Below are positions 4,499-19,652 of a DNA stretch of 64,000 bases, piece after piece. The first letter of the stretch is position 1, and every line of letters starts with the position of its first letter. Origin of the DNA: Bacteroidota bacterium (GTDB lineage Bacteria; Bacteroidota; Bacteroidia; B-17B0; Aurantibacillaceae); contig JAUXZS010000024.1 in the NCBI GenBank assembly GCA_030692515.1, positions 124,001-188,000 of the forward strand, read 5' to 3'. The notes under the pieces are model-generated. The model made no database searches. It saw only the letters and a list, made by a program, of their open reading frames with translations, and was not told the DNA's origin. Both the position numbers and the translations under genes were made by a program.

Positions 4499-6133
4499 TT
4501 ATTTTACTTTTAATGTTACACCAGGTATATTTCTAATAGTTCCATCAGGACCTTTAGCTTTAACGTTTTCGAAGAAAATTTTACTCCCAACACCAGCTGA
4601 AGATAAAATACTTCTTGCTTCTGAGTTAACAGAGTTACCTTGACAAACAACGGATTTTAAATTTCCTTTAACTACGGCTGTTAATTCAAAAGAAACAACT
4701 ATAAATTTAGCATCAAAGTCAAAGCCAGCTAATTCAGCTCCAACACCACCAATCTGTCCTAATTCAACTTTCTTTACATCAACATTTCCTGTTTTGCCAC
4801 CCACTTTTGCAACTGGGTCAGGAATTTTCTTAACACGAATTGGAATAGCAGGACCTTGTGATTTTCCTTTTGCAGAAACACTCACCATACAAGTACCAGG
4901 ACTAGTAGCGCGTAATACAAGTTTACCACCAGAACCCGTTTTAGTTGCACCGCAACCAGAAACATTAACCTGTAACTCAGTTGGAGAAACTCCGGCAGCA
5001 GAAACTTGAACAGGATTATCAACACCAATGTACATTACATTCATTTTTACTAACTGAACAGCAACTGCAGGTGCAGCAACCATATAAGTTGCATGCCAAG
5101 GATAATTTTCATAAGTACCATCTGGTTTTTTAAACTTGATAATACCATTTACTTTTTGCTCGCCTTGTCCACCCGTGTTAACAGAATACTTACCCATACC
5201 ATCTTTAATATCGATAGCTGTTCCGCCGTTACCGGTTAAAGAGTCTCCATTTAATAAAACTTGCATTTGATCAGCAGTCATAGCACTAGAGGAAGCCGCT
5301 AAAAAAATATCAGCAGTATAAGGTTGTCCTGCTTGAATATAAGAAGAAGGTGCAATCACTTTAGCAGATAATTTATCAAATTTGATTGCCAACTTACCAC
5401 TAGCACCCGAGAAAATATTTAACATTTCTGCTTCTGTGTTTTTTAAGTCAGTAACCATTTTATTAAGATTAACTACAACAGCAGCCATTGGTAAATGGTA
5501 AAAATTTTCTACTTCCCAAGTCATCAAAACTCCGTCTTCTTTAGCACCAGATGCCACAGGTTTAAGATCAGAAAACTTTTTCTTTAATCCTTTGTAATCC
5601 TCTTCTAATAATTTTGTTTTAGGATTCGTTTGCATTTCATCTAAAATACTATTTAACCCAGAGCTTAATTTATCCAATTTTCCTTTTAACTCTTGAGCTG
5701 TTAAGGATCCTCCAATAACTGCACCAGGCTCGGCAACACCTAAAATACGAGAAGGATTATCATAATCGTCAATCCTTTGTGCGTATTTCAATTGCACTGT
5801 ATCTGCTTTTGTTGTTGCCTCAGAGGTACCAATCACATACAATTTAACTTGATCAATATAAACCTCCATGTCTTTCAACATTTTTTGCGCAATTTTAGCT
5901 TTCTCAAAATAGCCAGCTGCAGCAGGATTTCCATTAATAGTATGCTCAAAAGATTCAGTAACTCGCTTGTTATTTTCCGCTAAATTTTCGCGGCTTTTTT
6001 CCATGCTTTCATTAACTGTAATATAACCATGTAATATTTGTTTTGAAACATTCATAGCCAGAAGTGCTGTAAGTACAAGGTACATCATACCAATCATCTT
6101 CTGCCTAGGGGTTTCTTTTCCTCCGCCTGCCAT
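4499..6133 (-). CDS. gldM: T9SS motor protein GldM (PorM)
   Basis: 544 residues opening with MAGGGKETPRQKMIGMMYLV, the highly conserved GldM/PorM start. A single transmembrane helix (about residues 14-32) and a large periplasmic part with several beta domains follow. GldM dimers span the periplasm. Their membrane helices sit in the GldL ring and transmit proton-motive-force-driven rotation to the GldK/N ring. Gene order gldL-gldM-gldN is the family standard. The 80 bases before the gene hold a small ATTGTT/AACAAT hairpin but no clear promoter, consistent with co-transcription from upstream. Confidence 0.97.
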   Translation of the reverse strand: MAGGGKETPRQKMIGMMYLVLTALLAMNVSKQILHGYITVNESMEKSRENLAENNKRVTESFEHTINGNPAAAGYFEKAKIAQKMLKDMEVYIDQVKLYVIGTSEATTKADTVQLKYAQRIDDYDNPSRILGVAEPGAVIGGSLTAQELKGKLDKLSSGLNSILDEMQTNPKTKLLEEDYKGLKKKFSDLKPVASGAKEDGVLMTWEVENFYHLPMAAVVVNLNKMVTDLKNTEAEMLNIFSGASGKLAIKFDKLSAKVIAPSSYIQAGQPYTADIFLAASSSAMTADQMQVLLNGDSLTGNGGTAIDIKDGMGKYSVNTGGQGEQKVNGIIKFKKPDGTYENYPWHATYMVAAPAVAVQLVKMNVMYIGVDNPVQVSAAGVSPTELQVNVSGCGATKTGSGGKLVLRATSPGTCMVSVSAKGKSQGPAIPIRVKKIPDPVAKVGGKTGNVDVKKVELGQIGGVGAELAGFDFDAKFIVVSFELTAVVKGNLKSVVCQGNSVNSEARSILSSAGVGSKIFFENVKAKGPDGTIRNIPGVTLKVK

Positions 6134-6213
6134 TTTTACAAATTTGTTTTTATATTGTTAAACAATAATAATAATTAAATAATACTAAATTCTTGTTTGG
6201 TTACAAACGAAGA

Positions 6214-7011
6214 TTATCCTTTGTTAAAGTTCATAGCACTTAACATATTGCCATAAACTGTGTTTAACGCAGTTAAATTAGTAGATAACTGAGACATTTC
6301 AGAACGATATTTTTTAGTATCATCAACTGAATCATGTAAGTTTTTCATTAGGTCGTGTAGTCCATCATAAAACTTAGATGTAGCATCTAAATGCGTTTTA
6401 CTACCTTGTAATTGTAACTCGTAAGTTGCATTTAAAGCAGATAAATTTTTAGAAACTTTATTTAAAGACTCGCCAATAGAATGTCCAGCGTCATTAGACT
6501 CAGCTAAACTTTGAATTGAATTTGCTGCACTTTTGTATGTATCAGCTAAAGTAGAAACACTACTTGATGCCTTTTTCACATTATCAACATATTCATTTGT
6601 AGCAACAGTAGCATTACTGATATCAGCCATTTTTGTAGCATTATCGCCAATTGCACGCATACCAGCACCTAAACTTTCAATTAATTCAGGTCCAATTTTT
6701 GCATCAGCCAACAAATTGTCTAATTGCTCAGTTATTGGTAAATTACTTTTTTCTTCTTCTTCCTCTAAAGCACCGCCCATACCAGCTAATTCTGGATAAG
6801 CTAAAGTCCAATCAACCTCCTCATGTGGAACGTCTGATGCAAATAAACAGAATAAAAATGCTTCGGTACTAAGACCTACAATTAGCATCTCATTACAAAG
6901 AGGCCAGTGCATAATTTTAAATAATGCCCCTAAGATAACTACGGCAGCACCAATACATGAAGCCATATGAACGAACTTCTTAAATCCTTTAACTTTTCCT
7001 AATTTACTCAT
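6214..7011 (-). CDS. gldL: T9SS inner-membrane motor protein GldL (PorL)
   Basis: 265 residues. Two transmembrane helices lie close to the N-terminus (about 13-31 and 41-58), followed by a long cytoplasmic helical tail rich in Ser, Asn and Asp. Lys32 in AlaLeuPheLys and Glu50 in SerThrGluAla sit where the charged residues needed for proton flow are found in characterised GldL proteins. GldL forms a pentamer around the GldM dimer and powers the secretion/gliding motor. It lies between gldK and gldM with short gaps (63 and 80 bases). Confidence 0.95.
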   Translation of the reverse strand: MSKLGKVKGFKKFVHMASCIGAAVVILGALFKIMHWPLCNEMLIVGLSTEAFLFCLFASDVPHEEVDWTLAYPELAGMGGALEEEEEKSNLPITEQLDNLLADAKIGPELIESLGAGMRAIGDNATKMADISNATVATNEYVDNVKKASSSVSTLADTYKSAANSIQSLAESNDAGHSIGESLNKVSKNLSALNATYELQLQGSKTHLDATSKFYDGLHDLMKNLHDSVDDTKKYRSEMSQLSTNLTALNTVYGNMLSAMNFNKG

Positions 7012-7074
7012 AGCTGTGTTGTGTTTTGTGGTTAGTTTTTGTGTTGATTATTTGTGTTTTTTTTGTGTTTTCTA

Positions 7075-8619
7075 TTAAATTTCGTCGCCTTTAGCACGAC
7101 CTAAGAAAGTCATAACATTTCTAAATCCAAGGTAACATTTTGCTGTATCTTGATATTCATAGGTACGAGCACTTGTTTGTAAGTAATAACCAACGTCTTT
7201 CCAACTTCCACCGCGTATTACTTTACGCTTTAATACATTTTGATCTTTTTCCTGAGCTTCATAAACGTAATCAGGATTTAAATCATGTTGAAAATCATAA
7301 GCTGATTCATCAAATGCATTACTTGTCCATTCAGAAACGTTACCAGCCATACAATATAAACCGTAATCGTTAGGGTTATATGAGTAAACATATACAGAGT
7401 GAAATCCACCATCATCAATATAAGAACCACGCATTGGCTTAAAGTTTCCTAAGAAACAACCACGTGAATTACGGATATAAGGACCGCCCCAAGGGTAAGG
7501 TGATTTATCAAGACCACCACGAGCAGCGTATTCCCACTCACTTTCAGTTGGTAAACGGAAATCATTAACGATAGTTTGACCAGTACCAATTAAATAATTG
7601 TTTAATAATAATGAACGCCAAATCGAGAATGCACGAACTTGTTTCCAAGTTACACCAACAACTGGATAATCATCATAAGCAGGATGCCAAAAATACATGT
7701 TTGTTAAAGGCTCATTAAATGAATAAGTATAATCATGAACCCAAGCTAAAGTATCTGGGTAAACATTAATAACATCTTTTAATATAAATACTGAACGATC
7801 AACACCCTTACGTTCTCTAGGAACATAATTTCCTTGACCAACAGATACCTGATCTTTTACATTATAAGTACCTAATACTTTACTATCTTTTGAAGGATCG
7901 CCAACTAAAGAAGATGGAGAACCAGGTGCACCGTTTTGTCCATCATTTAAAGTAACACCATTCATGTAATCTGCTTTTTTATAATCATGAGCAGCATCTT
8001 GAATATCTGGTGATTTGTTTGGTAAAAAACGGTTTGTTTTTGAAGCTGCTAGACGAATATCAATTCTATAATACTCATAATTTAACTTACGAGCATCTAT
8101 TTCTTTACGGTTATAAAAACGTTCACCTTCAGGAAGATACATTGGTTGTAAATCTGCTCTGTAATCATCATCTCCACTGTTCCAATTAATTTTTTGCTCC
8201 CAGTTAATATAAGGGTCTTGTAAATTATTATCTCCTTTATATATAGGCCACATTGCCAAGAAATCATCTTGAGTAATTTGGAAATCTTCAGCATCTCCAT
8301 TAGATCCGAAAGCTAATAATTTACGAGCAATTGAGTCACGCACCCAATAGACGAATTGACGGTACTCATTATTTGATATTTCAGAGTCATCTATGTAAAA
8401 TGCTTGAACAGACACCATTTTTGATTTTGTGGTGTGTGCCATAGGAGTTTCTTCATCATCGGGTCCCATATGGTAACTTCCCATAGGTATGAAAAGTGTA
8501 CCAAACGGATCTGGTTGAAACCACTTTTCGCGGCCACCAACACCAACCAATTCGGCTTCGTGTTTGTTACAACCTGCAACAAAGGCGACGAATGAAGCTA
8601 ATACCAATAGTTTTTTCAT
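7075..8619 (-). CDS. gldK: T9SS ring lipoprotein GldK (PorK)
   Basis: 514 residues with a lipoprotein signal (MKKLLVLASF, lipobox VAGC, Cys17). It has an FGE/sulfatase-modifying-factor fold, seen in IPMGSYHMGPDDEE near the start and in FRLPTESEWEYAARGG, GNVSEWTSN and VIRGGSWKD towards the end. In GldK/PorK this fold is structural: the lipoprotein sits on the periplasmic face of the outer membrane in a ring with GldN. It follows porP by 129 bases on the same strand and precedes gldL by 63. A middle insertion (roughly residues 150-270, many Asp/Asn) makes it somewhat longer than the Flavobacterium protein as I remember it. Confidence 0.95.
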   Translation of the reverse strand: MKKLLVLASFVAFVAGCNKHEAELVGVGGREKWFQPDPFGTLFIPMGSYHMGPDDEETPMAHTTKSKMVSVQAFYIDDSEISNNEYRQFVYWVRDSIARKLLAFGSNGDAEDFQITQDDFLAMWPIYKGDNNLQDPYINWEQKINWNSGDDDYRADLQPMYLPEGERFYNRKEIDARKLNYEYYRIDIRLAASKTNRFLPNKSPDIQDAAHDYKKADYMNGVTLNDGQNGAPGSPSSLVGDPSKDSKVLGTYNVKDQVSVGQGNYVPRERKGVDRSVFILKDVINVYPDTLAWVHDYTYSFNEPLTNMYFWHPAYDDYPVVGVTWKQVRAFSIWRSLLLNNYLIGTGQTIVNDFRLPTESEWEYAARGGLDKSPYPWGGPYIRNSRGCFLGNFKPMRGSYIDDGGFHSVYVYSYNPNDYGLYCMAGNVSEWTSNAFDESAYDFQHDLNPDYVYEAQEKDQNVLKRKVIRGGSWKDVGYYLQTSARTYEYQDTAKCYLGFRNVMTFLGRAKGDEI

Positions 8620-8748
8620 ATTACTTGTTTTAGTTTATAACCACAATCAACATTAAAGTTACTTGTTCTTTTGTTTGAAAGTTATTAACATTAATTGTTA
8701 GTTGTAAGTGGTTTAAACGCAATTTTATATAAAAGGTTACAAAATTTA

Positions 8749-9714
8749 TTAATTTAAGAAACGATCATCTCCATAAGATGATAATTTTTTAACTTTTGGC
8801 AACATACAGAAACCTAAGATAATCTCATGAGTTCCACCAACATTACCTTTTAATTTAGACAATGTAATGTCATATGAATAACCAATTTTATAGCTTAACC
8901 CACCAGTGGCAGATTTACCTTGGTAACCAATCATTAAGGCAGCAGCATCACTTACACGGTAAGTTCCACCAACCCAAAGCATATTATCATACATATATGT
9001 TAAATTAACATCAACAGCAGTTGCAGCCACATCTGATTTCATTTTTATGTTTGGTGTAATTTTATTTCTTGGGTTAATATCTAAAGAATAACCTGCCATT
9101 AAATAATAATGACGAGACATATCATAGCTTAATTTACCATCACCCTTAACAGATTGAGCTGGTAAGTGAGAACTTGATAAACCTACATACATTTTTCCAG
9201 GAATTTGGTAAAAAGCGCCAAAACCTAAATCATATGTTAATTTATTTAATGCAGGGTTACTTAATGCATCATATGCACCCGGAATATTAGGATCAACTTT
9301 ACCCGGCTCAGGAGTAATCCATGTATTATCAATTTTCTTTTGTAATATACCAACATCCAAACCAACACCTAAAGTACCTTTTCCAATAACTTTGTTATAT
9401 GAAATAGGAACTCTTAAGAATAAAGTGTTCATTGGACCTATTTTATCACTAATAACGTTTAAACCAATACCTAATGGTAAACCAGCTAACGGCATATCAA
9501 AGCCTAGAGCTAGGGTTTGAGGAGCACCTTCAAAAGCCGACCATTGCTGGCGGAATTGAATATTACCACACATAGCGCCAGAAGTACCAGCATAACCTGC
9601 GTTATAAATCAATTTATTGTGCATAAATTGTGTAAATTGAGGGTCTTGCTGAGCAACCGCAACCCCTGTAAAACCTGCTACTGCAATAGCAATTTGTGTG
9701 AAAAGTTTTTTCAT
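8749..9714 (-). CDS. porP: PorP/SprF-family type IX secretion outer-membrane protein
   Basis: 321 residues: a signal peptide (MKKLFTQIAIAVAGFTGVA, VAQ) and then the family signature QDPQFTQFMHNKLIYNAGYAG. The remainder alternates Gly/aromatic strands typical of a 12-14-stranded barrel. PorP/SprF proteins are outer-membrane components of the T9SS, and some are cargo-specific partners. This one leads the operon ahead of gldKLMN, the position of the core porP copy. A candidate promoter and a 5'-terminal hairpin lie upstream (9735-9796). Confidence 0.93.
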   Translation of the reverse strand: MKKLFTQIAIAVAGFTGVAVAQQDPQFTQFMHNKLIYNAGYAGTSGAMCGNIQFRQQWSAFEGAPQTLALGFDMPLAGLPLGIGLNVISDKIGPMNTLFLRVPISYNKVIGKGTLGVGLDVGILQKKIDNTWITPEPGKVDPNIPGAYDALSNPALNKLTYDLGFGAFYQIPGKMYVGLSSSHLPAQSVKGDGKLSYDMSRHYYLMAGYSLDINPRNKITPNIKMKSDVAATAVDVNLTYMYDNMLWVGGTYRVSDAAALMIGYQGKSATGGLSYKIGYSYDITLSKLKGNVGGTHEIILGFCMLPKVKKLSSYGDDRFLN

Positions 9715-9734
9715 ACTTTATTTAGTTAAATATA

Positions 9735-9760
9735 TAAGTGTTTTTTTGGCTATACACTTA
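9735..9760 (-). promoter_or_regulatory. Hairpin at the predicted 5' end of the porP-gldKLMN transcript
   Basis: TAAGTGT (9735-9741) pairs perfectly with ACACTTA (9754-9760) around a 12-base loop. The predicted transcription start from the promoter at 9766-9796 falls at about 9760, so the mRNA would begin with this stem. Such a 5' stem can protect mRNA from decay; that role is inference. Confidence 0.45.
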
Positions 9761-9765
9761 GGCGG

Positions 9766-9796
9766 CTAAATTAGTTAAAGAATTTTAAAAAACAAA
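9766..9796 (-). promoter_or_regulatory. Candidate promoter of the T9SS core operon
   Basis: The minus strand has TTTG (9793-9796), 19 bases, then TAATTTAG (9766-9773). The -33 element and spacing match the Bacteroidota consensus exactly and the -7 box has one mismatch to TAnnTTTG. It lies about 52 bases before the porP ATG. Confidence 0.6.
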
Positions 9797-9883
9797 TAAT
9801 TCAGCCTAAATTTTTAATATTTGTTAAATTTTTGGTCTACCTTATTGACTAAATACTCGTAAAAAAAATGTTAGTGAATAATA

Positions 9884-9914
9884 TTTGGGAACTTAAATTA
9901 TTAATGTATATTTG
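9884..9914 (+). promoter_or_regulatory. Promoter of rpmE2
   Basis: TTTG (9884-9887), 19 bases, TATATTTG (9907-9914): a perfect match to both elements of the Bacteroidota primary sigma promoter. It predicts a start near 9920 and a leader of about 30 bases. Confidence 0.85.
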
Positions 9915-9949
9915 CATCCCAATTTTGAACCTTAATAAATCATTTTAAA

Positions 9950-10201
9950 ATGAAAAAAGAAATACATCCAGAAAATTATAGATTATGTGTGTTTAAAGAC
10001 ATGAGCAATGGTTATGCCTTTATTACTCGTTCTTGTGCAGAGACAAAAGAAAATGTTAAATGGGAAGATGGTAACGAATATCCATTAGTTAAATTAGATA
10101 TTTCAATGACCTCGCATCCTTTTTATACAGGTAAACAAGTTTTAGTTGATACTGCTGGTCGTGTGGATAAATTCCGTACTCGTTACGCAAAAAAGAAATA
10201 A
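9950..10201 (+). CDS. rpmE2: Ribosomal protein L31, type B
   Basis: 83 residues beginning [20 protein letters not shown], with [10 protein letters not shown] and the tail [12 protein letters not shown], all typical of bL31 type B (RpmE2). The zinc-binding CxxC pair of the type A paralogue is absent: the two cysteines (in RLC and SCAE) are far apart. It is a component of the large ribosomal subunit at the bridge to the small subunit. It stands as a single-gene unit with its own promoter and a strong terminator. Confidence 0.97.
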
Positions 10202-10223
10202 AAAATTTCAATATTATACTTCT

Positions 10224-10257
10224 ACCCTGTCTTGCTAAAACAAGACAGGGTTTTTTT
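10224..10257 (+). terminator. Terminator of rpmE2
   Basis: ACCCTGTCTTG (10224-10234) pairs perfectly with CAAGACAGGGT (10241-10251) around a six-base loop, followed by seven T. Confidence 0.95.
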
Positions 10258-10566
10258 ATTGCCAAAAAAGATGAAATAATAAACTGTTTGTTTTGAAAAT
10301 GAAATTTAAACTAGTTTATATAAATTATTATACTTGGTTAATCTTGCTAAATAAAAACAAAAAACACAAAAATGTTATATGAAACAAACGTACATGTTAT
10401 TATATTTATAAAAGGTGAAAATGAATTTCATGACAGATTGATTACCCATTACATTTAGATTTTATTTACTGAAGTTATCCCTCTAAGATACAACTACCAA
10501 TATTATTATTTCTGCTTTAAAAGAAACAATCGTAATAATTATAAGTGTCTTTTAATTCCTGAGTGA
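10258..10566. other. AT-rich intergenic stretch with no supported gene
   Basis: This lies between the rpmE2 terminator and the stop of mnmE, where the two genes converge. I see only a 28-codon frame (ATG at 10372) with no family resemblance or promoter, and no stem followed by a T-run for mnmE. I found no repeat or RNA gene here. Confidence 0.5.
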
Positions 10567-11961
10567 TTATTTGCCGATACAAAACTTACTAAAGATATTA
10601 GTAAGTAAATCCTCATTAGTTACTTGGCCAGTAATTGTTCCAATTTCGTCGAGCGCATATCTAATATCTAATGCTAACAAATCGGCAACAATGTTTTTAT
10701 CTAATCCTTCCAAAACCTTTTCTAAAGATTTTTTTACATTTATTAATGAATTAGCATGGCGCGCATTGGTTACAATGGTATCTGTAGCAGAAACTATTCT
10801 TGCATCAAATAAACTCAATAATTTTAGTTTAAGCTCTTTTATATATTCGTGCGTTTTGGCTGAAATAAAAATAATTTCAGGGAAATCAGAAAATTCCTTT
10901 TTAAGATCATTTAAACTTTCTGTATCTATTTTATTAGCCACAATTACTAATTGAGATGTGCCAATATAATCTTTCAACATTTCAATTTCCATTTTCAAAT
11001 CGCCACTACTTAATTCATGCGAATCAAATAAATAAATAACAATTGCCGACTTTTGAATTGCTTCGTAAGCTTTATTTACACCTATCTGTTCAATTACATC
11101 TGTAGTAGTTCTAATACCTGCAGTATCAATAAATCTAAACAATACACCGTCAATAGTAATTTCATCTTCAATGGTATCTCTTGTTGTTCCAGCAATTTCG
11201 CTAACGATAGCGCGATCATCTTCTAACAAAACATTTAATAAAGTAGATTTTCCGGCGTTTGGTTTTCCTACTATAGCAACCGGAATTCCGTTTTTAATAA
11301 CATTTCCTAATTCAAAACTATTCACTAATTTTTGAACAACAGTATTAATAGAAAGAATTAATTTTTTTAAATCTGTTCTATTGGCAAACTCTACATCCTC
11401 TTCACTAAAATCTAATTCTAATTCAATTAAGGAAGCAAAGTTAATTAGGTTTTCGCGCAACAATTTTATTTTATCACTAAATCCACCGCGCATGTGCTGC
11501 ATAGCAACTTGATGCGAAATAGCAGAGTTACTGGCAATTAAATCTGCTACGGCTTCGGCCTGACTTAAATCAAACTTTCCATTTAAAAAAGCACGTAAAG
11601 TAAATTCTCCAGGCTCTGCGTGTCGCGCCCCAGAAGCTAAAAATAATTGTAAAAGTTGCTGTTGAATAAATGTTGAACCATGACAAGAAACTTCAACACT
11701 ATCCTGGCCAGTATAAGAATTTGGTCCTTTAAAAATACTTACCAAAACTTCATCAATAATTATATCCTGTTGTATAATTAATCCAAAATGTAATGTGTGT
11801 GATTGTTTATTATGAATGGTTTTTTTTATTAATTTTTTTGAATAAAAGCTTTCCTCAACAATATTAAATGCCTTTGGTCCACTTAATCTTATAACCGCAA
11901 TTGCTGCACTTCCATGAGAAGTGGCTAAAGCAACAATGGTATCGTTTGTTTCTATTTTCAT
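10567..11961 (-). CDS. mnmE: tRNA modification GTPase MnmE
   Basis: 464 residues. An N-terminal formyl-folate-binding domain (start TNDTIVALATSHGSAAIAVIR, with GPNSYTGQDSVE) is followed by a helical domain. An inserted G domain carries GKPNAGKST near residue 232, DTAGIR and NKID. The protein ends with the family C-terminus FCIGK, whose Cys is conserved. With MnmG it makes the cmnm5U34 wobble modification in tRNAs. The length is normal for the family. It lies 43 bases after the MFS gene on the same strand and may be transcribed with it. Confidence 0.98.
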   Translation of the reverse strand: MKIETNDTIVALATSHGSAAIAVIRLSGPKAFNIVEESFYSKKLIKKTIHNKQSHTLHFGLIIQQDIIIDEVLVSIFKGPNSYTGQDSVEVSCHGSTFIQQQLLQLFLASGARHAEPGEFTLRAFLNGKFDLSQAEAVADLIASNSAISHQVAMQHMRGGFSDKIKLLRENLINFASLIELELDFSEEDVEFANRTDLKKLILSINTVVQKLVNSFELGNVIKNGIPVAIVGKPNAGKSTLLNVLLEDDRAIVSEIAGTTRDTIEDEITIDGVLFRFIDTAGIRTTTDVIEQIGVNKAYEAIQKSAIVIYLFDSHELSSGDLKMEIEMLKDYIGTSQLVIVANKIDTESLNDLKKEFSDFPEIIFISAKTHEYIKELKLKLLSLFDARIVSATDTIVTNARHANSLINVKKSLEKVLEGLDKNIVADLLALDIRYALDEIGTITGQVTNEDLLTNIFSKFCIGK

Positions 11962-12004
11962 TAAAGTAACAATCTAATTTATTAAAAATTATTGAAGGAA
12001 AAAA

Positions 12005-13198
12005 TTAAACCTTTAATGGCTTTACTTTATTAAAAACTAAAACTGCCAATAGTACAAAACAAATGGCTATATAACCTAAATAAGGATAATTATGTAATTT
12101 ATGATCGCTGGATTGTAAAACTATAAAACCTCCTATTAAAGATGCCATCGAAGTTCCAAATTGTTGAACCGAAGAGTTTATAATTAAAAAAGCGCCTCTA
12201 ATACTTGGTTCGGCAGTGGAGGTTGTGTGAGCCATAGAAATAATCATTCTTGAGCCGCTAAAAACAAAGAAAGAAGCTGTAAAACATAATAAAACAATTT
12301 TATTATCGGTTTGCAAATTTGGAATTCCAATTAAAGGAATCAAAGACAAAACAGATAATGCCAGCAATACTTTATACCTTCCAATTCTATCACTTAGTTT
12401 GCCAATCATTGGCGATGAAAAAGCGGTTATTGCTCCTCCTACAATATAAACAAGAGGAACAGTTCCTGAATAATCAAATCCAAGATTAAAAGTAAAATAA
12501 TCGGTTAAAAATGGAATTATAAAAAAATGTGAGGGCATTATCATTAGTGTTAACAATAAAGCCCATCTTCTATTTTTATCTTCTAAAACGCTTTTCATTA
12601 CACCAATAAATGTTTGTGGTTTATAACGAACTAAATGTCCTGTAAAAGATGGAACTGCAACTAAAATGCCAATAAAAACAAGTGCACACAGGCCTCCTAA
12701 AATTAAAAAAGGTGTATACCAATAATTATGCGCTGCCAGATACAATCCCCCCGGAACACCAACAATACTTGCTAATGCAAAGCCCATCATTAAAATACCC
12801 ATTGCCTGGCCCCGTTTTTGTACGGGAATTGCATCACCAACAATCGACTGAATAATTGACCCCGAAACACCGCCAAATAAACCTGTTATAAAACGAGCAA
12901 CCACAAGCATTATGTAACTGGTTGCGAACCCACAAAAGAAAGTACCTAACGTAAAACCGGCGTAAATAAAAACCAAAACTTTTTTACGATCAAACTTATC
13001 TACTTTGTTTACACATATAAGAGAAGAAATAAAAGCGCCAATACCATAAGCAAAAACGGCAACACCAAATTGACTTGGACTAATTCCCCAAAGCTCTGTT
13101 AACTTTGGTTTAAGAGGCATTAAAATCATAAAATCAACAATACCTGTAAATTGAACGAAAGCAAGCGTTAGAAGAAGAATAATATCGGAACGTTTCAT
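12005..13198 (-). CDS. Major facilitator superfamily transporter (DHA1-like)
   Basis: 397 residues with about 12 hydrophobic segments. The DHA-type motif between helices 2 and 3 is present (KVDKFDRKKVLV), with GKLSDRIGRYKVL in the second half. The helix 4-5 region has VVARFITGLFGGVSGS and then GIPGGLYLA-like features of the drug-efflux/sugar-efflux branch. It is probably a proton-coupled exporter in the inner membrane; the substrate cannot be read from sequence. The ATG at 13198 lies only 8 bases after a near-consensus -7 box. Confidence 0.88.
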   Translation of the reverse strand: MKRSDIILLLTLAFVQFTGIVDFMILMPLKPKLTELWGISPSQFGVAVFAYGIGAFISSLICVNKVDKFDRKKVLVFIYAGFTLGTFFCGFATSYIMLVVARFITGLFGGVSGSIIQSIVGDAIPVQKRGQAMGILMMGFALASIVGVPGGLYLAAHNYWYTPFLILGGLCALVFIGILVAVPSFTGHLVRYKPQTFIGVMKSVLEDKNRRWALLLTLMIMPSHFFIIPFLTDYFTFNLGFDYSGTVPLVYIVGGAITAFSSPMIGKLSDRIGRYKVLLALSVLSLIPLIGIPNLQTDNKIVLLCFTASFFVFSGSRMIISMAHTTSTAEPSIRGAFLIINSSVQQFGTSMASLIGGFIVLQSSDHKLHNYPYLGYIAICFVLLAVLVFNKVKPLKV

Positions 13199-13206
13199 GA
13201 ATACTG

Positions 13207-13214
13207 CAAAGTAA
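13207..13214 (-). promoter_or_regulatory. Possible -7 box of the MFS gene
   Basis: The minus strand reads TTACTTTG, one mismatch to TAnnTTTG, ending 8 bases before the ATG at 13198. If used, the mRNA would be almost leaderless. Confidence 0.35.
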
Positions 13215-13275
13215 AGTTCATAAAGTTAGGTTAAAAAAGAAGTATAAAATAAATTTATATAGAAATAAAAAAAAA

Positions 13276-13283
13276 TATATTTG
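13276..13283 (+). promoter_or_regulatory. -7 box upstream of the 146-residue gene
   Basis: TATATTTG is a perfect TAnnTTTG and would give a leader of about 16 bases before the ATG at 13306. The -33 region is AT-rich without a clear TTTG. Confidence 0.55.
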
Positions 13284-13305
13284 GTAAACTTTTAATAAAA
13301 AAAAC

Positions 13306-13746
13306 ATGTTTGATTTAAAAACTGCAGTAACAAATATTTCTAATAAATGGAAATATAAATTAGATGAAGTAAGCCCTGGTATTTATAAAATAGACGTGGC
13401 TATAAAAATGAAAGATGATAGTTGGAGATACCAAAACGTTTGGATTTGGGAAATTAAAGGGCGCCATTTTGGAAAAGATGTTATTTATATGAATAGTAGA
13501 TGTGGAGAATATAACCCAAACCTTAATCATTATAAATTACTTAAAGAAGGGGGCTACGGTACTTTTGCTCAAGTAACAGTTACAACAGATAAACGCGCCG
13601 ATGGATCGCCATGCGAAACATTAATTGTGCAAGCTGTGCAGCCAGTTGAGCTTACAAACGAAACAATTTTAAATGAAGTTATTTATGACGTTGCATTTAA
13701 CGGTGATATTATCGAGCAAGCCTACTTTGGGGGAGATAACAACTAA
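13306..13746 (+). CDS. Conserved-looking cytosolic protein of unknown function
   Basis: 146 residues, no signal peptide and no membrane helix. The sequence alternates beta and helix with many aromatics (RYQNVWIWEIKGRHFGKDVIYM), followed by SRCGEYNP and a Val/Thr-rich strand (FAQVTVTTDK). The layout (helix, three to four strands, helix, ending in FNGDIIEQAYFGGDNN) vaguely recalls small chaperone/YbjN-like folds, but I would not assign it. It is transcribed from its own -7 box, divergently from the MFS gene. The next gene, an unknown lipoprotein, starts 107 bases downstream on the same strand. Confidence 0.8.
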   Translation: MFDLKTAVTNISNKWKYKLDEVSPGIYKIDVAIKMKDDSWRYQNVWIWEIKGRHFGKDVIYMNSRCGEYNPNLNHYKLLKEGGYGTFAQVTVTTDKRADGSPCETLIVQAVQPVELTNETILNEVIYDVAFNGDIIEQAYFGGDNN

Positions 13747-13853
13747 AAAAAATTAACAATAAATACCTGAAAAGTGCAGAATTTTAATTTGTCATATTCA
13801 GTTATTTTGCTTTACTTGCACTAAATTAATCTTTAAAAAACATCAATTTATCG

Positions 13854-14765
13854 ATGAGTATTCATAAAAAAATGCTAAACAAAAACGTTTTAGCTTTATC
13901 AATTGCAGCAGCCCTACTTACATCTTGTGGCGGCAAAAAAGATGACGTAAACAAGGATGAAATAGTTGAAACTGTAGATACAGTTAAATCATCTGTTTTA
14001 AATGTTGGAGGAGAACTTTTTAGTGTCCCATCTCCAATTCAAACAGCATTGTTAATTCAAAAAAGTGGTATATCGTACGATAAATCAACCTTACACGCTT
14101 CAAACAAAGTAAATACATTTACAACTGATTTTTCAAAAGCTCTTAATTTAGGGATTTATGGCGCAGATTTAGGATATGTATCCCTTTATAACCAAACTCA
14201 AGATGCATTAGGTTATTTAGCTTCTGTAAAACAGTTAGCTGATAAACTTGGTATTTCAGCTGCATTTGATGCTTCTACTATGGAACGCATAAAAAACAAT
14301 GTAACTAATAAAGACAGTATGATGGTTTTGGTAGGTATTGCTTACAGAGGTAGCGATGCTTATTTAAAAAATAATCAAAGAACCGGTATAAGTAGTTTGA
14401 TTCTTACAGGTGGGTGGATTGAGAGTATGCATTTTTCAGTTACCGCATACACAACAAAACCAACTGAAGGGGTGAGATTTAGAATAGCTGAGCAAAAACA
14501 AGCTTTAGGGAGTTTGATAAAAATATTAAGTAATAGTCAAGGGCCTGAAGTTGTTGCGTTAACTAATCAATTAACTGAACTTTCTAAAATTTATGATGGT
14601 ATTGAATTTAAGTACAATTTTGTTGAGCCTGTTACAGATACAACAAAAAAATTAACTTATATTAATAGCACAACTGAAGTAATTGTTAGTGATGCACAAA
14701 TCACTCAGATTACTGAAAAAATTAAAGAAATTAGAAATAAAATAATTAACGCTTCTCAATCATAA
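13854..14765 (+). CDS. Lipoprotein of unknown function
   Basis: 303 residues. A lipoprotein signal has lipobox LLTSC followed by GGKKDD. An in-frame ATG at 13872 (MLNKNV), preceded by an A-run, is an equally good start. The mature protein is largely helical with regular Ala/Leu spacing (ALGYLASVKQLADKLG) and a central GGWIESMHFS segment. I recall similar proteins in other Bacteroidota but no named function. Gly after the lipid Cys suggests outer-membrane placement, as is usual for Bacteroidota. It is followed after 21 bases by a small exported protein gene, most likely in one transcript that ends at 15236-15267. Confidence 0.85.
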   Translation: MSIHKKMLNKNVLALSIAAALLTSCGGKKDDVNKDEIVETVDTVKSSVLNVGGELFSVPSPIQTALLIQKSGISYDKSTLHASNKVNTFTTDFSKALNLGIYGADLGYVSLYNQTQDALGYLASVKQLADKLGISAAFDASTMERIKNNVTNKDSMMVLVGIAYRGSDAYLKNNQRTGISSLILTGGWIESMHFSVTAYTTKPTEGVRFRIAEQKQALGSLIKILSNSQGPEVVALTNQLTELSKIYDGIEFKYNFVEPVTDTTKKLTYINSTTEVIVSDAQITQITEKIKEIRNKIINASQS

Positions 14766-14786
14766 TAATTAAACTTTTACATTAAA

Positions 14787-15215
14787 ATGAAGAAATTTAT
14801 TATAGCCCTTTCCTTTATTTCATTAACAGCAAGTTTTAATAAAGTAAATGCCCAATGCGACACAATCGCGAATATTTGTGCTAAACACATAATTGCATCG
14901 TTTATTTCTGATGGGCAACAATACCGCGCCTTGTTATTAAACTCTGAAGAAACTGCTGAATTCCAAACTACCTTTTTTGGCGAAACAACTTACAGAATTG
15001 CCGCTTGTAGCGGAACTTCGGATGGAAATTTGATTTTCAATATCTATGATCAAGATCGTCACTTATTATTCACTAACCGAGATAAGAAAAATGCTCCATA
15101 TTGGGATTTTAAAGTTAAATCTACTCTAGAAACAATTATCGAAGCTCAATTAGATGCTAATAGAAATCCTGGTTCTGGTTGCGCAGTAATGTTAATCGGC
15201 TTTAAGCAAAAATAA
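14787..15215 (+). CDS. Small exported protein of unknown function
   Basis: 142 residues with a signal peptide (MKKFIIALSFISLTASFNK, VNAQ). The mature part has four cysteines (CDTIANIC, AACSG, GCAV) and a beta-rich centre including LIFNIYDQDRHLLFTN. This is reminiscent of a jelly-roll, prepeptidase-C-like fold, although I cannot confirm that. Expected location is the periplasm. It sits 21 bases after the lipoprotein gene and directly before a terminator, so lipoprotein and small protein form a two-gene unit. Confidence 0.82.
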   Translation: MKKFIIALSFISLTASFNKVNAQCDTIANICAKHIIASFISDGQQYRALLLNSEETAEFQTTFFGETTYRIAACSGTSDGNLIFNIYDQDRHLLFTNRDKKNAPYWDFKVKSTLETIIEAQLDANRNPGSGCAVMLIGFKQK

Positions 15216-15235
15216 AGTTCACATTAAAAAAAATT

Positions 15236-15267
15236 AAAAGGATAAAGTAAAACTTTATCCTTTTTTT
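15236..15267 (+). terminator. Terminator after the lipoprotein/small-protein pair
   Basis: AAAAGGATAAAGT (15236-15248) pairs with ACTTTATCCTTTT (15252-15264) around a three-base loop, running into seven T. Confidence 0.9.
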
Positions 15268-15291
15268 GTATCTTAGAATTCAATTTTTAAA

Positions 15292-15780
15292 ATGAAGCAT
15301 ATAATTATATTTTTTAGTTTATTCTTTTGTGGATTTAATAGTTTTTCTCAGGACGCTTCTGACTATAATATTGTAAAAGACACCATTCATATCCCAAAAG
15401 AAAATAAAACATTAGATTGCGAATACCTGATTACTACCCTCAAAAATAGCACTACAATACAATTAATTAAAGCCTCAAACAATAAATATTATTTAAGAAT
15501 TGTTACTTCAGAAAACTTATACTTCGGTAAAACTGATATGCTGGAGGTAAACTCTAATTCAAAAAGTTTTTTCGCAAAGGAAACTACTAATTTTGAATTA
15601 AATAAAAACACAGGTTATTATATTATTGAAATTTATAAAAATTATATCGGCACCCTAAAAGAAGATGGAATTACTGGCTATATTTTTGGTAAAGCAGTTA
15701 CAAAATTTTCAAAGCAAGATTGCAACCAAGTAAAACAAATGGCAAAAAAATTCTATGAAATTTATTGCGCCAAAAAATAA
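15292..15780 (+). CDS. Small exported protein preceding the TerB-ABC transporter
   Basis: 162 residues with a signal peptide (MKHIIIFFSLFFCGFNSFSQ). The mature protein is beta-rich with many Lys, Asn and Tyr (NNKYYLRIVTSENLYF). It ends in a helix KQDCNQVKQMAKKFYEIY and has three mature cysteines (DCEYL, QDCNQ, YCAKK). I do not recognise the family. Its stop codon is only six bases before the ATG of the large ABC transporter gene, so the two are almost certainly co-expressed. A periplasmic partner or substrate-contact role is inference. Confidence 0.82.
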   Translation: MKHIIIFFSLFFCGFNSFSQDASDYNIVKDTIHIPKENKTLDCEYLITTLKNSTTIQLIKASNNKYYLRIVTSENLYFGKTDMLEVNSNSKSFFAKETTNFELNKNTGYYIIEIYKNYIGTLKEDGITGYIFGKAVTKFSKQDCNQVKQMAKKFYEIYCAKK

Positions 15781-15786
15781 TAAAAA

Positions 15787-18700
15787 ATGAGCGAACGAAT
15801 ACTAAGAGCCCTTATGCAAATGTTTGCAATTATTGCAAAGGTTGATGGCATAAACAATACAGGCAGACAAATTGTACAATCCTTTCTAAAAAGTCAATTA
15901 AACTTAGAGCAGGTTGAAACTTATTTAAAAATATTTGATGAATATTTAGAATCTCATCAAAATACAAATAAAAAGAAAGAAGGCGCTGCAAAGAGAACCT
16001 CTTTGAACTCTGTAAAGATTTTAAAAATTTGTACCCAAATTAATCAGGAGCTTGAGCAACCACAAAGAGTAATTGTTTTAATACGTTTATTAGAGTTCAT
16101 TCACTCAAGTAACGAAATTTCGGAACAAGAAAATGAATTTGTTCTCACTGTTGCCGATACATTTAACATTCCAATGGAAGAATTTAATCTTTTAACTTCT
16201 TTTGTTGAGGATGGATTGGAAGTGGTACCTAATAACCCTAATATTTTGATTATTAATAATCAAGAGGTTGGTAATCTAAATCAAAGCAAACATATTTATT
16301 GCGAAACGCTACCACAAGATGTTAGGGTTATTCAAATTGAAAGTGTTTCAATGTATGCACTTAGAATTTATGGAAATTTCGAACTTCAATTAAACGGACA
16401 AGGTATTTCTAAAGAACGCGTACACATTTTCACACCAGGCTCTTCTATTCGCTCTAGTAAAATAAAACCAATTTATTATAGTGATGTAATTGGTCATTTT
16501 TTAAGTGATGAATCTCGACCAAGAATTACTTTTGAAGTAAAAAACCTCGAATACAAATTTAAAGGAGGAAAATTAGGTTTACGTGACATTAACATTAATG
16601 AAGAAAGCGGAAAACTAATTGGCATAATGGGTGGTTCGGGTGCAGGTAAGTCTACATTATTAAATGTACTTAACAGCATGGAAACCCCAAGCGCAGGTTC
16701 GGTGAAAATTAATGGCAAAAACATTCATACTGAAAAGGATCAAATTCAGGGTGTAATCGGTCATGTTAGTCAGGATGATTTATTGATTGAAGAACTTACT
16801 GTTTACGAAAACTTATTTTACAATGCTAAATTATGTTTTGGAAACTTAGGAGACGATGAAATTGCTGAACGCTGCAATACGTTATTAGCCGACATTGGCT
16901 TAAGTGAAACAAGAAATTTAAAAGTAGGATCGCCTTTAGAAAAAACAATTTCCGGTGGACAACGAAAGCGTTTAAATATTTCATTAGAATTAATTCGTGA
17001 ACCAAGTGTTTTATTTGTTGACGAACCTACTTCAGGTCTATCTTCACGTGACTCTGAAAACATCATGGACCTTTTAAAAGAATTAGCTTTAAAAGGAAAA
17101 TTAATTTTTGTAGTAATTCATCAGCCATCATCAGAGATTTATAAAATGTTTGATAAGCTAATGATTTTAGACGTTGGCGGATACCCTATTTATTATGGTA
17201 ATCCCGTTGATGCGGTTAGTTATTTTAAAAGATTAGTTAATCATGTAAATGCAGAAGAATCTGAGTGCTGGAATTGTGGTAACGTTAATCCTGAACAAAT
17301 TTTTAATATTATCGAAAGTAAGGTATTGGATGAATACGGAAACTTAACTTACAATAGAAAGGTTAGCCCGCTTGAATGGAATGTTCAATATAGAGAAAGA
17401 ATTGAAAGCAATATTCATTCAGATAAAAAACATACAGAAATTCCAGAAAGTATATTTAAAATACCTAACATTTTTAAACAGTTTAAAGTATTTATTACGC
17501 GTGATGTTAAAAGCAAATTAACAAACACTCAGTACTTAATGATTAATTTTTTAGAAGCACCGGTTCTTGCTTTCATTTTAGCATATTTGGTTAGATTTTT
17601 TAATACTGATGTTGATACAAGTAAAGGATATGTGTTTGGAGAAAATGAGAACATTCCGGCATATATGTTTATGTCTGTTGTGGTTGCTTTATTTATTGGA
17701 TTAACCGTAAGTGCCGAGGAAATTATTCGCGATAGAAAAATCCGAAAACGCGAATCGTTTTTGAATTTAAGTAAAGGCAGTTATTTATGGAGTAAGATTT
17801 TAATTATGTTTTCATTATCCGCCGTTCAAACTTTAACCTTTGTTATTGTAGGTAATTCTGTTTTAGGCATAAAAGGAATGTATACAGATTATTGGATGAT
17901 CTTATTTACCACTTCTTGTTTTGCGAACATTTTAGGTTTAAATATATCATCGGCATTTAACAGTGCAGTAACCATTTACATTTTGATTCCTTTTTTAATT
18001 ATACCTCAATTATTATTAGCAGGCGTTGTAGTTAAATTTGATAAACTAAACCCAACTCTGGCTTCGCAAGGAAGTGTGCCAATTAGTGGTGAAGTAATGG
18101 CCAGTCGTTGGGCATTTGAAGCTTTAGCAGTAAATCAATTTAAAGAAAATAATTACGAACGTAATTTTTATAAATATGATAAAAGCATTAGCGTTGCTCA
18201 ATACAAAAAAGATTATTGGATGCCAAAGCTTGAAAGCAAAATTGTGAAGATAGAAAATGAGTTAAGGGATGGTAAAAAATTAAGCGACGTAAAAGCCGAT
18301 ATTGAATTAATTTATAATGAGATAGACAAGGAAACAAAAATAAATAAAAAGGTTGCCTGCCCTGTTTTAAAACAAATAAACGTAAAAGACTACAACACTT
18401 CGGTTGCTACTGGCATAAAAACTTACTTAACAAACATCAAAAACTATTATATAAATGTGCAAAACACAGCCTATAAAAAATTAGATGAAGTAAAACTTTC
18501 TATGCAAAAAACACCGGAAGAAAAAGAAGCGTTTTTACAGCTAGCAGCAAATTATGATAACGAAAACTTAAACAATTTGGTTAAAAACGCAGGCGAATTA
18601 AACCGCTGTATTGAAAAAGACGGGAAACTAATTCAACAAATTGATCCTGTATTTCAAGATCCAACGGGTTCAAAAATTGGTAGAGCGCACTTTTTTGCTC

Positions 18701-18864
18701 CTAGAAAAAATTTCTTTGGAATGTACTTTTCTACTTATTGGTTTAATATTTGTGTCATCTGGATGATGAGCATTTCACTTATATTTACACTGTATTTTGA
18801 GATATTTAAAAAAATATTAGACGCTCTGGGAAGTATTAAATTCACTAAGAAGAAAGCATTTTAA
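15787..18864 (+). CDS. ABCG-type ABC transporter (ATPase plus permease in one chain) with N-terminal TerB-like domain
   Basis: 1025 residues. Residues about 1-145 look like a TerB helical domain (FAIIAKVDG, then a second HSSNEISEQENEF repeat). A beta-rich linker contains FTPGSSIRSSKIKPIYYSD. The ATPase has Walker A GGSGAGKST near 282-290, signature ISGGQRKRLN near 388, Walker B VLFVDEPTSG near 408 and H-loop VIHQPSSE near 441. Then comes a CWNCG motif at about 494-498 and an ABCG-like membrane domain of about five helices (582-751). A long coiled-coil-rich extracytoplasmic region (about 752-970) and a final helix (978-1008) complete it. ABCG half-transporters act as dimers and usually export lipids or hydrophobic compounds. 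TerB domains are linked to membrane-associated stress systems. The substrate is unknown. Confidence 0.9.
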   Translation: MSERILRALMQMFAIIAKVDGINNTGRQIVQSFLKSQLNLEQVETYLKIFDEYLESHQNTNKKKEGAAKRTSLNSVKILKICTQINQELEQPQRVIVLIRLLEFIHSSNEISEQENEFVLTVADTFNIPMEEFNLLTSFVEDGLEVVPNNPNILIINNQEVGNLNQSKHIYCETLPQDVRVIQIESVSMYALRIYGNFELQLNGQGISKERVHIFTPGSSIRSSKIKPIYYSDVIGHFLSDESRPRITFEVKNLEYKFKGGKLGLRDININEESGKLIGIMGGSGAGKSTLLNVLNSMETPSAGSVKINGKNIHTEKDQIQGVIGHVSQDDLLIEELTVYENLFYNAKLCFGNLGDDEIAERCNTLLADIGLSETRNLKVGSPLEKTISGGQRKRLNISLELIREPSVLFVDEPTSGLSSRDSENIMDLLKELALKGKLIFVVIHQPSSEIYKMFDKLMILDVGGYPIYYGNPVDAVSYFKRLVNHVNAEESECWNCGNVNPEQIFNIIESKVLDEYGNLTYNRKVSPLEWNVQYRERIESNIHSDKKHTEIPESIFKIPNIFKQFKVFITRDVKSKLTNTQYLMINFLEAPVLAFILAYLVRFFNTDVDTSKGYVFGENENIPAYMFMSVVVALFIGLTVSAEEIIRDRKIRKRESFLNLSKGSYLWSKILIMFSLSAVQTLTFVIVGNSVLGIKGMYTDYWMILFTTSCFANILGLNISSAFNSAVTIYILIPFLIIPQLLLAGVVVKFDKLNPTLASQGSVPISGEVMASRWAFEALAVNQFKENNYERNFYKYDKSISVAQYKKDYWMPKLESKIVKIENELRDGKKLSDVKADIELIYNEIDKETKINKKVACPVLKQINVKDYNTSVATGIKTYLTNIKNYYINVQNTAYKKLDEVKLSMQKTPEEKEAFLQLAANYDNENLNNLVKNAGELNRCIEKDGKLIQQIDPVFQDPTGSKIGRAHFFAPRKNFFGMYFSTYWFNICVIWMMSISLIFTLYFEIFKKILDALGSIKFTKKKAF

Positions 18865-18880
18865 TTACTAATTCATATTA

Positions 18881-18907
18881 AAAAAGGAAGCTAAACACTT
18901 CCTTTTT
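18881..18907. terminator. Bidirectional terminator between the ABC transporter and the Dph6-like gene
   Basis: AAAAAGGAAG (18881-18890) pairs with CTTCCTTTTT (18898-18907) around a seven-base loop, with A- and T-runs on both sides. It lies between two convergent genes and can serve both. Confidence 0.85.
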
Positions 18908-18929
18908 TTATATCAAAAAATTTGAATTT

Positions 18930-19652
18930 CTATTTATTTGGTAACAAATCGCAAAACCAAAACCCTTTAGTTTCAATTTCGTTTAAAGAATTACAAGTTC
19001 CCTCATACTTAATATCAAGAGCCTTGTAAATATTTTCTCCCATCAAAAAATTTATTTTATTTTTAAAAATGGGTCCATCAAAACAAAAAGTGTGATACTC
19101 CCCATTTTCCCCGCAATAATCAATATTAGACGGTAATTCGTTTAAGAATTTTTCGTCTATCTCTCGCCCTAACCATTCTTCTCCCAAATAACCATCATTA
19201 ACACAGCAAATAACAGTTTTAAACTTTAAATGAATAAAATCTTTCACCAATTCATTTGTATTTATTTTCCATAAAGGAAATACCGCCTTCATGCCAACTT
19301 TAGCTAAATTATTTTCGCGATAAATCCTTAAATCTTCTAAAAAAATATCTCCAAAAATTACATTTTCAATTACTTCCAATTTTGCTTTTAACAAAACAGA
19401 TTCCATTTGTTTTTCGTAGTCATCATTAGTGCCTGCTGTTACCCTAACTTTTAAAACCGGTATTTTTATTTCCGAAGTTTGAATATCCAACAACTCTTCC
19501 CTAGTTCCGTGCATAGACACGCGTTTAAACTCATCACTAATTGTGGTTAATAAATATTTAACGTCAAATAATTTTTCCGATAAAACTTTATGTAAACAAT
19601 AGGCAGAGTCTTTTCCTCCACTCCAACAAAATATCGCTTTTGGTAATTGCAT
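18930..19652 (-). CDS. Dph6-like adenine nucleotide alpha hydrolase (diphthine-ammonia ligase family)
   Basis: 240 residues with a PP-loop SGGKDS at 11-16, then KRVSMHGTREELL and the C-terminal GENGEYHTFCFDGPIF block that defines the Dph6/MJ0570 family. In eukaryotes and archaea these enzymes amidate diphthine on elongation factor 2. Bacteria lack diphthamide, so the bacterial substrate is unknown and an ATP-dependent amidation or thiolation is the safe reading. It starts nine bases after the uvrA stop, suggesting co-transcription. A conserved functional link with uvrA is not implied. Confidence 0.9.
   Translation of the reverse strand: MQLPKAIFCWSGGKDSAYCLHKVLSEKLFDVKYLLTTISDEFKRVSMHGTREELLDIQTSEIKIPVLKVRVTAGTNDDYEKQMESVLLKAKLEVIENVIFGDIFLEDLRIYRENNLAKVGMKAVFPLWKINTNELVKDFIHLKFKTVICCVNDGYLGEEWLGREIDEKFLNELPSNIDYCGENGEYHTFCFDGPIFKNKINFLMGENIYKALDIKYEGTCNSLNEIETKGFWFCDLLPNK

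Follow-up and report, generated by a model that had tools for sequence, protein, structure and literature searches.

Within a 64,000-nucleotide stretch of a Bacteroidota genome (contig JAUXZS010000024.1, positions 124,001 to 188,000; the whole stretch is called the window below), a block of five genes ends in a 1025-residue protein that is, as judged from its sequence and structural model, an ABCG-type half-transporter with a TerB domain as its front end. By gene neighbourhood, the strongest link of this transporter is with genes of a SiaABC-type partner switch, which suggests that such phosphorylation switches may control membrane export besides the known signalling enzyme. Neighbour counts across loci further define a core, present across class Bacteroidia, of the transporter, a 303-residue lipoprotein, and a 142-residue exported protein, to which the gene of a 162-residue exported protein is a lineage addition. 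That a SiaABC-type switch gates an ABCG exporter working with the lipoprotein and the 142-residue protein is a reading to which we would give about an even chance.

Genes of the SiaABC-type switch beside the transporter

Neighbours of the transporter gene were taken from 20 loci of the genus (L054–L073; L numbers denote loci and G numbers genomes), from L034–L053, and from 78 of 80 named loci, L131 and L141 being left out because their transporter open reading frame (ORF) is too short. L034–L053 comprise 18 loci of 13 other families, the second transporter copy of the window's own genome (L034), and a further genus locus (L041); the latter two are left out of the recount by family. A gene is scored as a neighbour if it lies no more than 6 kb from the transporter, the limit for the 162-residue protein gene being 3 kb. 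Named loci whose flanks reach 5 kb or more on each side number 49 and are referred to as full-flank. Three of the named loci (L074, L076, and L081) are genus contigs again, and the downstream flanks of the genus loci measure only 77 to 3360 bases.

In a clustering of the neighbours, the transporter cluster (103 loci outside L054–L073) is followed by the lipoprotein, the 142-residue protein, and then SiaC (38 loci) and SiaB (31 loci), the members of the last two clusters lying entirely outside L054–L073. Pfam scans of L042, L034, L123, L133, L138, and L180 confirm SiaC (PF09345), SiaB (DUF6272), and SpoIIE among these loci, and likewise in the own-genome cassette L173 described below. Among the full-flank loci, SiaC is present in 21 of 49 and SiaB in 20 of 49, and either the lipoprotein or SiaC in 45 of 49; the 18 loci of other families have SiaC nearby in nine cases and SiaB in seven. 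At the level of families, SiaC adjoins the transporter in 8 of 13, versus 0.33 expected by chance from copy number and genome size (P = 5e-11, with families taken as independent and gene places as random; G041, which also carries the transporter, stands outside these 13 families). The association extends to gene content. Among 23 genomes outside the genus, 13 have both the TerB-ABC protein and SiaC, eight have neither, one has the transporter only, and one has SiaC only (Fisher 1.6e-4, with a partial match over residues 243–481 in G052 scored as absence of TerB-ABC).

SiaC near the transporter is usually accompanied by SiaB and sometimes by a SpoIIE phosphatase, and neither the gene order nor the strand of the linked genes is fixed. 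One locus with linked SiaC, L132, belongs to a cultured isolate, Marinifilum flexuosum DSM 21950. All three components (SiaC, DUF6272-type SiaB, and PP2C/SpoIIE) stand together beside the transporter in L042, and L180, L181, and L182 share the run phosphatase, SiaB, SiaB, SiaC, SiaC fusion, ABC transporter, lipoprotein, and 142-like protein, in which the phosphatase and the fusion are Pfam-confirmed for L180 only. The phosphosite motif NT[SA][SA] is present, as a motif, in 36 of the 39 SiaC proteins of the neighbour cluster. We note that the second SiaC of L180–L182, encoded directly before the transporter gene, has a long N-terminal extension (in L180, by Pfam, SiaC occupies residues 235–344 of 360), and that genes of HPt-like and STAS-like clusters occur in the same stretch as the TerB-ABC gene in L113, L116, L122, L124, L129, L144, and L146 (by Pfam in L113 only).

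The genome of the window has a SiaABC-type cassette of its own (L173; contig C68, about 97.8–103.0 kb), which ends about 37 kb before the transporter. It encodes a 1084-residue protein with propeller repeats, a Y_Y_Y region, and SpoIIE, a 285-residue protein without a Pfam match, SiaB, and SiaC. This gene order recurs beside the transporter in L042 and L035, the putative phosphatase gene of L035 being cut at the stretch edge, and in L044 a 285-like protein, SiaB, and SiaC adjoin the transporter. At the second transporter copy, L034, a SiaC-like gene and a gene for a double-DUF6272 protein lie 4.7–5.8 kb away; directly before this copy, at L034 positions 5233–9723, lies a gene for a 1496-residue protein with no Pfam match at E ≤ 0.001.

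In the SiaC tree, the cassette SiaC proteins of the genus, that of L173 included, group with those of the transporter-linked loci L035, L037, and L088 (Shimodaira–Hasegawa-like approximate likelihood ratio test, SH-aLRT, 87), and in the transporter tree the window's protein groups with the same three loci (SH-aLRT 98). Second transporter copies group across families (SH-aLRT 100, in a set that includes four loci without SiaC), as do the SiaC proteins of second copies (SH-aLRT 89). Because the SiaC tree has low resolution (24 of its 52 inner branches are open, and the L034 row is a very long branch), this agreement is support rather than proof. L073 and L076, whose SiaC matches have very long branches, are left out of the transporter tree and kept in the neighbour counts, L073 in the genus row and L076 among the 78 named loci, not among the 49.

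The transporter, its exported partners and the probable units of the block

The five ORFs (146, 303, 142, 162, and 1025 residues) and the gap of six bases between the 162-residue protein gene and the transporter gene were confirmed as a preliminary description of the block had given them (Table 1). Its reading of the large protein is likewise borne out. The N-terminus had been called TerB-like, and PF05099 matches the whole 1025-residue protein with 25.2 bits against a cut-off of 24.4, a narrow margin, and residues 1–142 alone with 30.2 bits; TerB is matched at E ≤ 0.1 by 40 of 41 homologous N-termini. The proposed ABCG-type ATPase and permease lie in one chain, ABC_tran (107 bits) preceding ABC2_membrane (65.6 bits) in Pfam. 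A structural model built from 69 sequences (mean predicted local distance difference test, pLDDT, 83.4) has the ABCG fold by Foldseek (E 1.5e-25), and VIA-align superimposes it on human and plant ABCG transporters (Z 32.6 over 539 residues, root-mean-square deviation 4.2; Z 32.3 over 548 residues, root-mean-square deviation 2.8). The key residues of Walker A and the ABC signature SGGQ are kept in all 69 homologues and the H-switch VIHQP in 67 of 69; the exact string VLFVDEP is found in 37 of 69, its DEP part being invariant. The large extracytoplasmic insert of the preliminary description corresponds to 238 residues (745–982) between the last two hydrophobic spans, which are mainly helical in the model and predicted by topology to be periplasmic. 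Matches to PDB sequence profiles were not accepted for either the insert (best E 0.026) or the TerB part (E 0.93). In the linker from the ATPase to the membrane domain, a CxxC (residues 494–497, window 17266–17277) is present in 68 of 69 homologues and is possibly a metal or redox site.

Table 1. Features of the transporter block in window coordinates
Feature	Position	Strand	Basis or remark
146-residue protein, no signal peptide	13306..13746	+	ORF; accessory, patchy
303-residue lipoprotein, unnamed mostly helical family	13854..14765	+	conserved transporter partner
142-residue exported protein, conserved cysteines, unnamed family	14787..15215	+	usually pairs with the lipoprotein
terminator-like hairpin and T run 3' of the 142-residue protein gene	15236..15268	+	folding energy, shuffles
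162-residue exported protein	15292..15780	+	genus and a few near loci only
TerB / FHA-like / ABCG half-transporter, 1025 residues	15787..18864	+	Pfam, fold match, model
TerB domain, residues 1–142	15787..16212	+	Pfam PF05099
degenerate FHA-like domain, residues 146–246	16222..16524	+	weak assignment; hhalign, position as in L171
ATPase, residues 247–511, with Walker A, ABC signature, Walker B, and H-switch	16525..17319	+	
helical insert, residues 745–982, before the last membrane span, predicted periplasmic	18019..18732	+	

The residues between the TerB domain and the ATPase are weakly assigned to a degenerate FHA-like domain. Compared by hhalign with a profile of ten FHA domains from related genomes, they score a probability of 23.8 (E 8.4e-4), versus about 0.3 for two unrelated controls. 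The assignment is favoured by an FHA-FHA-ABC protein of genome G052 (L171), the second FHA domain of which occupies the same position directly before the ATPase. Pfam FHA (PF00498) finds no match in the window copy; at E ≤ 0.1 it matches two of 51 homologues, the best E being 0.013. In FHA domains, GR and SxxH residues bind phosphothreonine; they occur in most FHA rows compared and are absent from the consensus of the FHA-like family. Against PDB sequence profiles, the best match of this part, a MEK1 kinase chain at E 0.56, was not accepted.

Of the four small proteins that had been put forward as partners of the transporter, two keep that role. The lipoprotein gene lies beside the transporter in 17 of the 20 genus loci (in L066 as a different paralogue by score), in 17 of the 18 loci of other families, in 55 of the 78 named loci, and in 37 of the 49 full-flank loci. 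The corresponding counts for the 142-residue protein gene are 16 of 20, 13 of 18, 48 of 78, and 32 of 49. With the repeated genus contig removed from the full-flank set, the lipoprotein is found in 36 of 48 loci, the 142-residue protein in 31 of 48, and SiaC in 21 of 48. Among 198 genomes of the phylum, the transporter and the lipoprotein occur in the same five (the own genome included, and three others of one family; Fisher 4e-10). The 162-residue protein gene adjoins the transporter in 19 of the 20 genus loci and in L041, in none of the 18 loci of other families, in 7 of 78 named loci (of which three or more are genus contigs), and in 5 of 49 full-flank loci, so that a pairing of this gene with the transporter across Bacteroidota is not supported. 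The 146-residue protein, for which a Pfam scan gave nothing above cut-off, has a homologue in 8 of 20 genus loci.

The lipoprotein and 142-residue protein families are, on profile searches, the components not of known kind; neither has a consistent Pfam match. The best single-member match in the lipoprotein family (0.00097, one of 61) is taken as chance, as are those in the 142-residue family (best 0.0032, one of 49; ArlS_N in 8 of 49, best 0.016). The window lipoprotein carries the lipobox LTSC, and a lipobox is recognised by pattern in 44 of 61 family members, seven of which have a K-, QA-, S- or T-(D/E)2 string. In the window copy, KKDD stands at +4 to +7, versus a surface-exposure optimum of C-X-K-(D/E)2-X in the excerpted text of PMC5080379. 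Its model (pLDDT 85) gives no PDB fold match at E ≤ 0.001; the best VIA Z, 7.1, is within the range of unrelated helical proteins, which does not make the fold new, and the best PDB sequence profile (E 0.035) was not accepted. In the 142-residue family, all four cysteines, which might pair as disulfides, are kept in 23 of 49 rows, and the best PDB sequence profile (E 0.51) was again rejected. A LolA-like carrier was considered for the 162-residue protein and set aside (LolA_2 14.3 bits versus a cut-off of 26.8 for the window member; 2 of 17 members at E ≤ 0.1, best 0.0095), as was kinship between the 142- and 162-residue proteins, for which hhalign aligned the signal peptides only.

The block is, on its predicted RNA folding and gene distribution, two units: the exported pair, and the transporter, joined in the genus by the 162-residue protein gene. 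A hairpin of 13 pairs (−13.1 kcal/mol) with a T run separates the 142- and 162-residue protein genes, and among 58 loci that have a comparable spacer, 45 show such a hairpin after the 142-residue protein gene, versus a mean of 2.35 and a maximum of 6 in 20 shuffles. In the genus genomes G015, G016, G024, and G036, the lipoprotein/142-residue pair sits together elsewhere, and the 162-residue protein gene stays by the transporter in L070, L069, and L066, the loci read from three of those four genomes. The pair is found together away from the transporter in seven loci (L154, L158, and L187–L191), the first of which is a transporter-free pair in the own genome; G004 and G025 have weaker-scoring lipoprotein homologues only. 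The preliminary view of the whole block as one system is accordingly not sustained, with the 162-residue protein near-confined to the genus, the 146-residue protein patchy, and the hairpin splitting the exported pair from the transporter. Two further lipoprotein paralogues of the own genome, L155 and L156, have no transporter or 142-like neighbour. Upstream of the block, a promoter-like TAnnTTTG string is seen at 13276.

Proposed control of export and alternative readings

In the mechanism that we propose, the ABCG half-transporter would act as a homodimer and would carry a substrate, probably hydrophobic or lipid-like, over the inner membrane. ABCG family transporters are exporters, and the direction of transport is taken from membership of this family; that the substrate is hydrophobic is guessed from the nearest structural matches. 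The 238-residue insert, the lipoprotein, and the 142-residue protein would form the envelope (periplasmic) side of the transporter, and the cytosolic TerB and FHA-like module would be the control input of the SiaABC-type switch. Phosphorylation of SiaC would be set by the kinase SiaB and the SpoIIE (PP2C) phosphatase, the latter often fused to a sensor, and SiaC in one of its states may bind the TerB/FHA-like module, turning the pump on or off. A more specific version, offered tentatively, is that dephosphorylated SiaC docks on this module and switches export of an envelope component received by the lipoprotein and the 142-residue protein. If true, SiaC would be a regulator of general use, plugged into various effectors with transporters among them, SiaABC switches would govern a membrane exporter in addition to cyclic-di-GMP, and TerB may serve as the regulatory input of a transporter; two unnamed families and a TerB-fused pump are placed in one testable system.

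Several observations weigh against switch-gated export. The 64-kb window, searched for both genes, has no SiaC or SiaB, the link being invisible from the window because the own-genome cassette lies outside it. SiaC is missing within 6 kb in 28 of the 49 full-flank loci, and the 20 genus loci, with downstream flanks of no more than 3360 bases, give a single SiaC match, which has a very long branch and is taken for spurious. G058 carries the transporter but no SiaC, and the reverse holds for G059 and G033 (60% complete); G059 also keeps the lipoprotein and a 142-like gene. Where present, SiaC occurs in 1 to 15 copies per genome, so that many copies would serve other targets. Neither partner set is found within 6 kb in L078, L079, L080, and L100. 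The association of the exported partners is also incomplete: lipoprotein homologues stand beside the transporter without the 142-residue protein gene (for example, L049, L133, and L147) or alone (L155, L156, and L157), and SiaBC occurs without a lipoprotein or 142-residue protein gene within 6 kb in L113, L116, and L125. Several loci, many of them titled Bacteroidales, hold SiaBC without these two genes, and the switch and the exported partners therefore appear to be separable.

The most serious of the alternatives, which we nevertheless think unlikely, is a mechanical machine of the FtsEX or MacB type: the ABC protein would export nothing, and ATP-driven movement of its long periplasmic helices would exert force on the lipoprotein and the 142-residue protein. 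The largely helical insert between the last two spans and the dedicated exported partners are what such a machine would have. However, the 50 best chains shown in the structural comparison are either ABCG-type, with Z up to 32.6 over the whole half-transporter, or lone ATPase subunits, and FtsX or MacB chains are none of the matches listed, which does not exclude them.

Ranking after it, and doubtful in our view, is control in the reverse direction, with the transporter sensing envelope state or flux and reporting to SiaABC, the output of which would lie elsewhere. Transporter-sensors such as those of the BceAB type exist, and adjacency alone gives no direction. This reading is opposed by the SpoIIE proteins encoded beside SiaBC in L173 and L042, which have a propeller/Y_Y_Y region of their own. 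It is opposed also by the behaviour of SiaC in Pseudomonas aeruginosa, which acts on an adjacent effector, the authors suggesting that DUF1987 proteins commonly modulate adjacent proteins (PMC8457831, as excerpted).

A stress, tellurite, or phage-defence machine of TerB type, a hint of the preliminary description resting on the N-terminal TerB domain, is very improbable: there is no ter gene among the nine proteins scanned (8749–19652), and PADLOC matches on the ABC protein are confined to its ATPase region. Least probable of all is that the genes are neighbours through common descent alone and that their proximity has no bearing on function. This reading can draw on the kinship of many of the loci and on lineages in which one or other neighbour is missing, but linkage of SiaC in 8 of 13 families and in differing gene orders and strands, together with whole-genome co-occurrence, speaks against it.

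Relation to known systems

Within the limited literature collection searched, we found no description of a TerB-ABC or SiaC-ABC transporter system in Bacteroidetes. The system resembles TerB proteins of tellurite clusters in its Pfam TerB match; here, however, TerB is fused to a transporter, and the neighbours scanned contain no ter gene. With eukaryotic ABCG5/G8, ABCG1, and ABCG2, the protein shares an ATPase placed before the membrane domain and the same fold over about 540 residues, whereas it is bacterial, begins with a TerB/FHA-like module, and has a stretch of 238 residues ahead of its last span.

Fusion of regulatory domains to the front of an ABC exporter is also seen in the FHA-ABCG proteins of the Rv1747 type. 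For Rv1747, two FHA domains and a gene for a cognate Ser/Thr kinase are described (excerpts of PMC5549992 and PMC3908365). The protein described here differs in having TerB and a degenerate FHA-like domain, a large insert, and exported partners, with SiaB instead of a Hanks kinase. A protein of this Rv1747-like type, the FHA-FHA-ABC protein L171, is encoded by G052, a member of the class that has no SiaC and no full TerB-ABC protein.

The closest parallel to the switch itself is SiaABCD of P. aeruginosa, where the phosphorylation of SiaC at T68 depends on SiaA and SiaB and acts through a partner switch (PMC7647112, in excerpt). Both systems encode together a PP2C phosphatase, a DUF6272 kinase SiaB, and a SiaC with the NTSS phosphosite motif. 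They differ in the gene linked to the switch, which in P. aeruginosa, according to the excerpted PMC7647112 and PMC8457831, is the diguanylate cyclase SiaD, and here is an ABCG transporter with exported partners. As read from genes and their order, what appears to be new is the kind of effector linked to a SiaABC-type switch and, for an ABCG transporter, the regulatory module at its front end.

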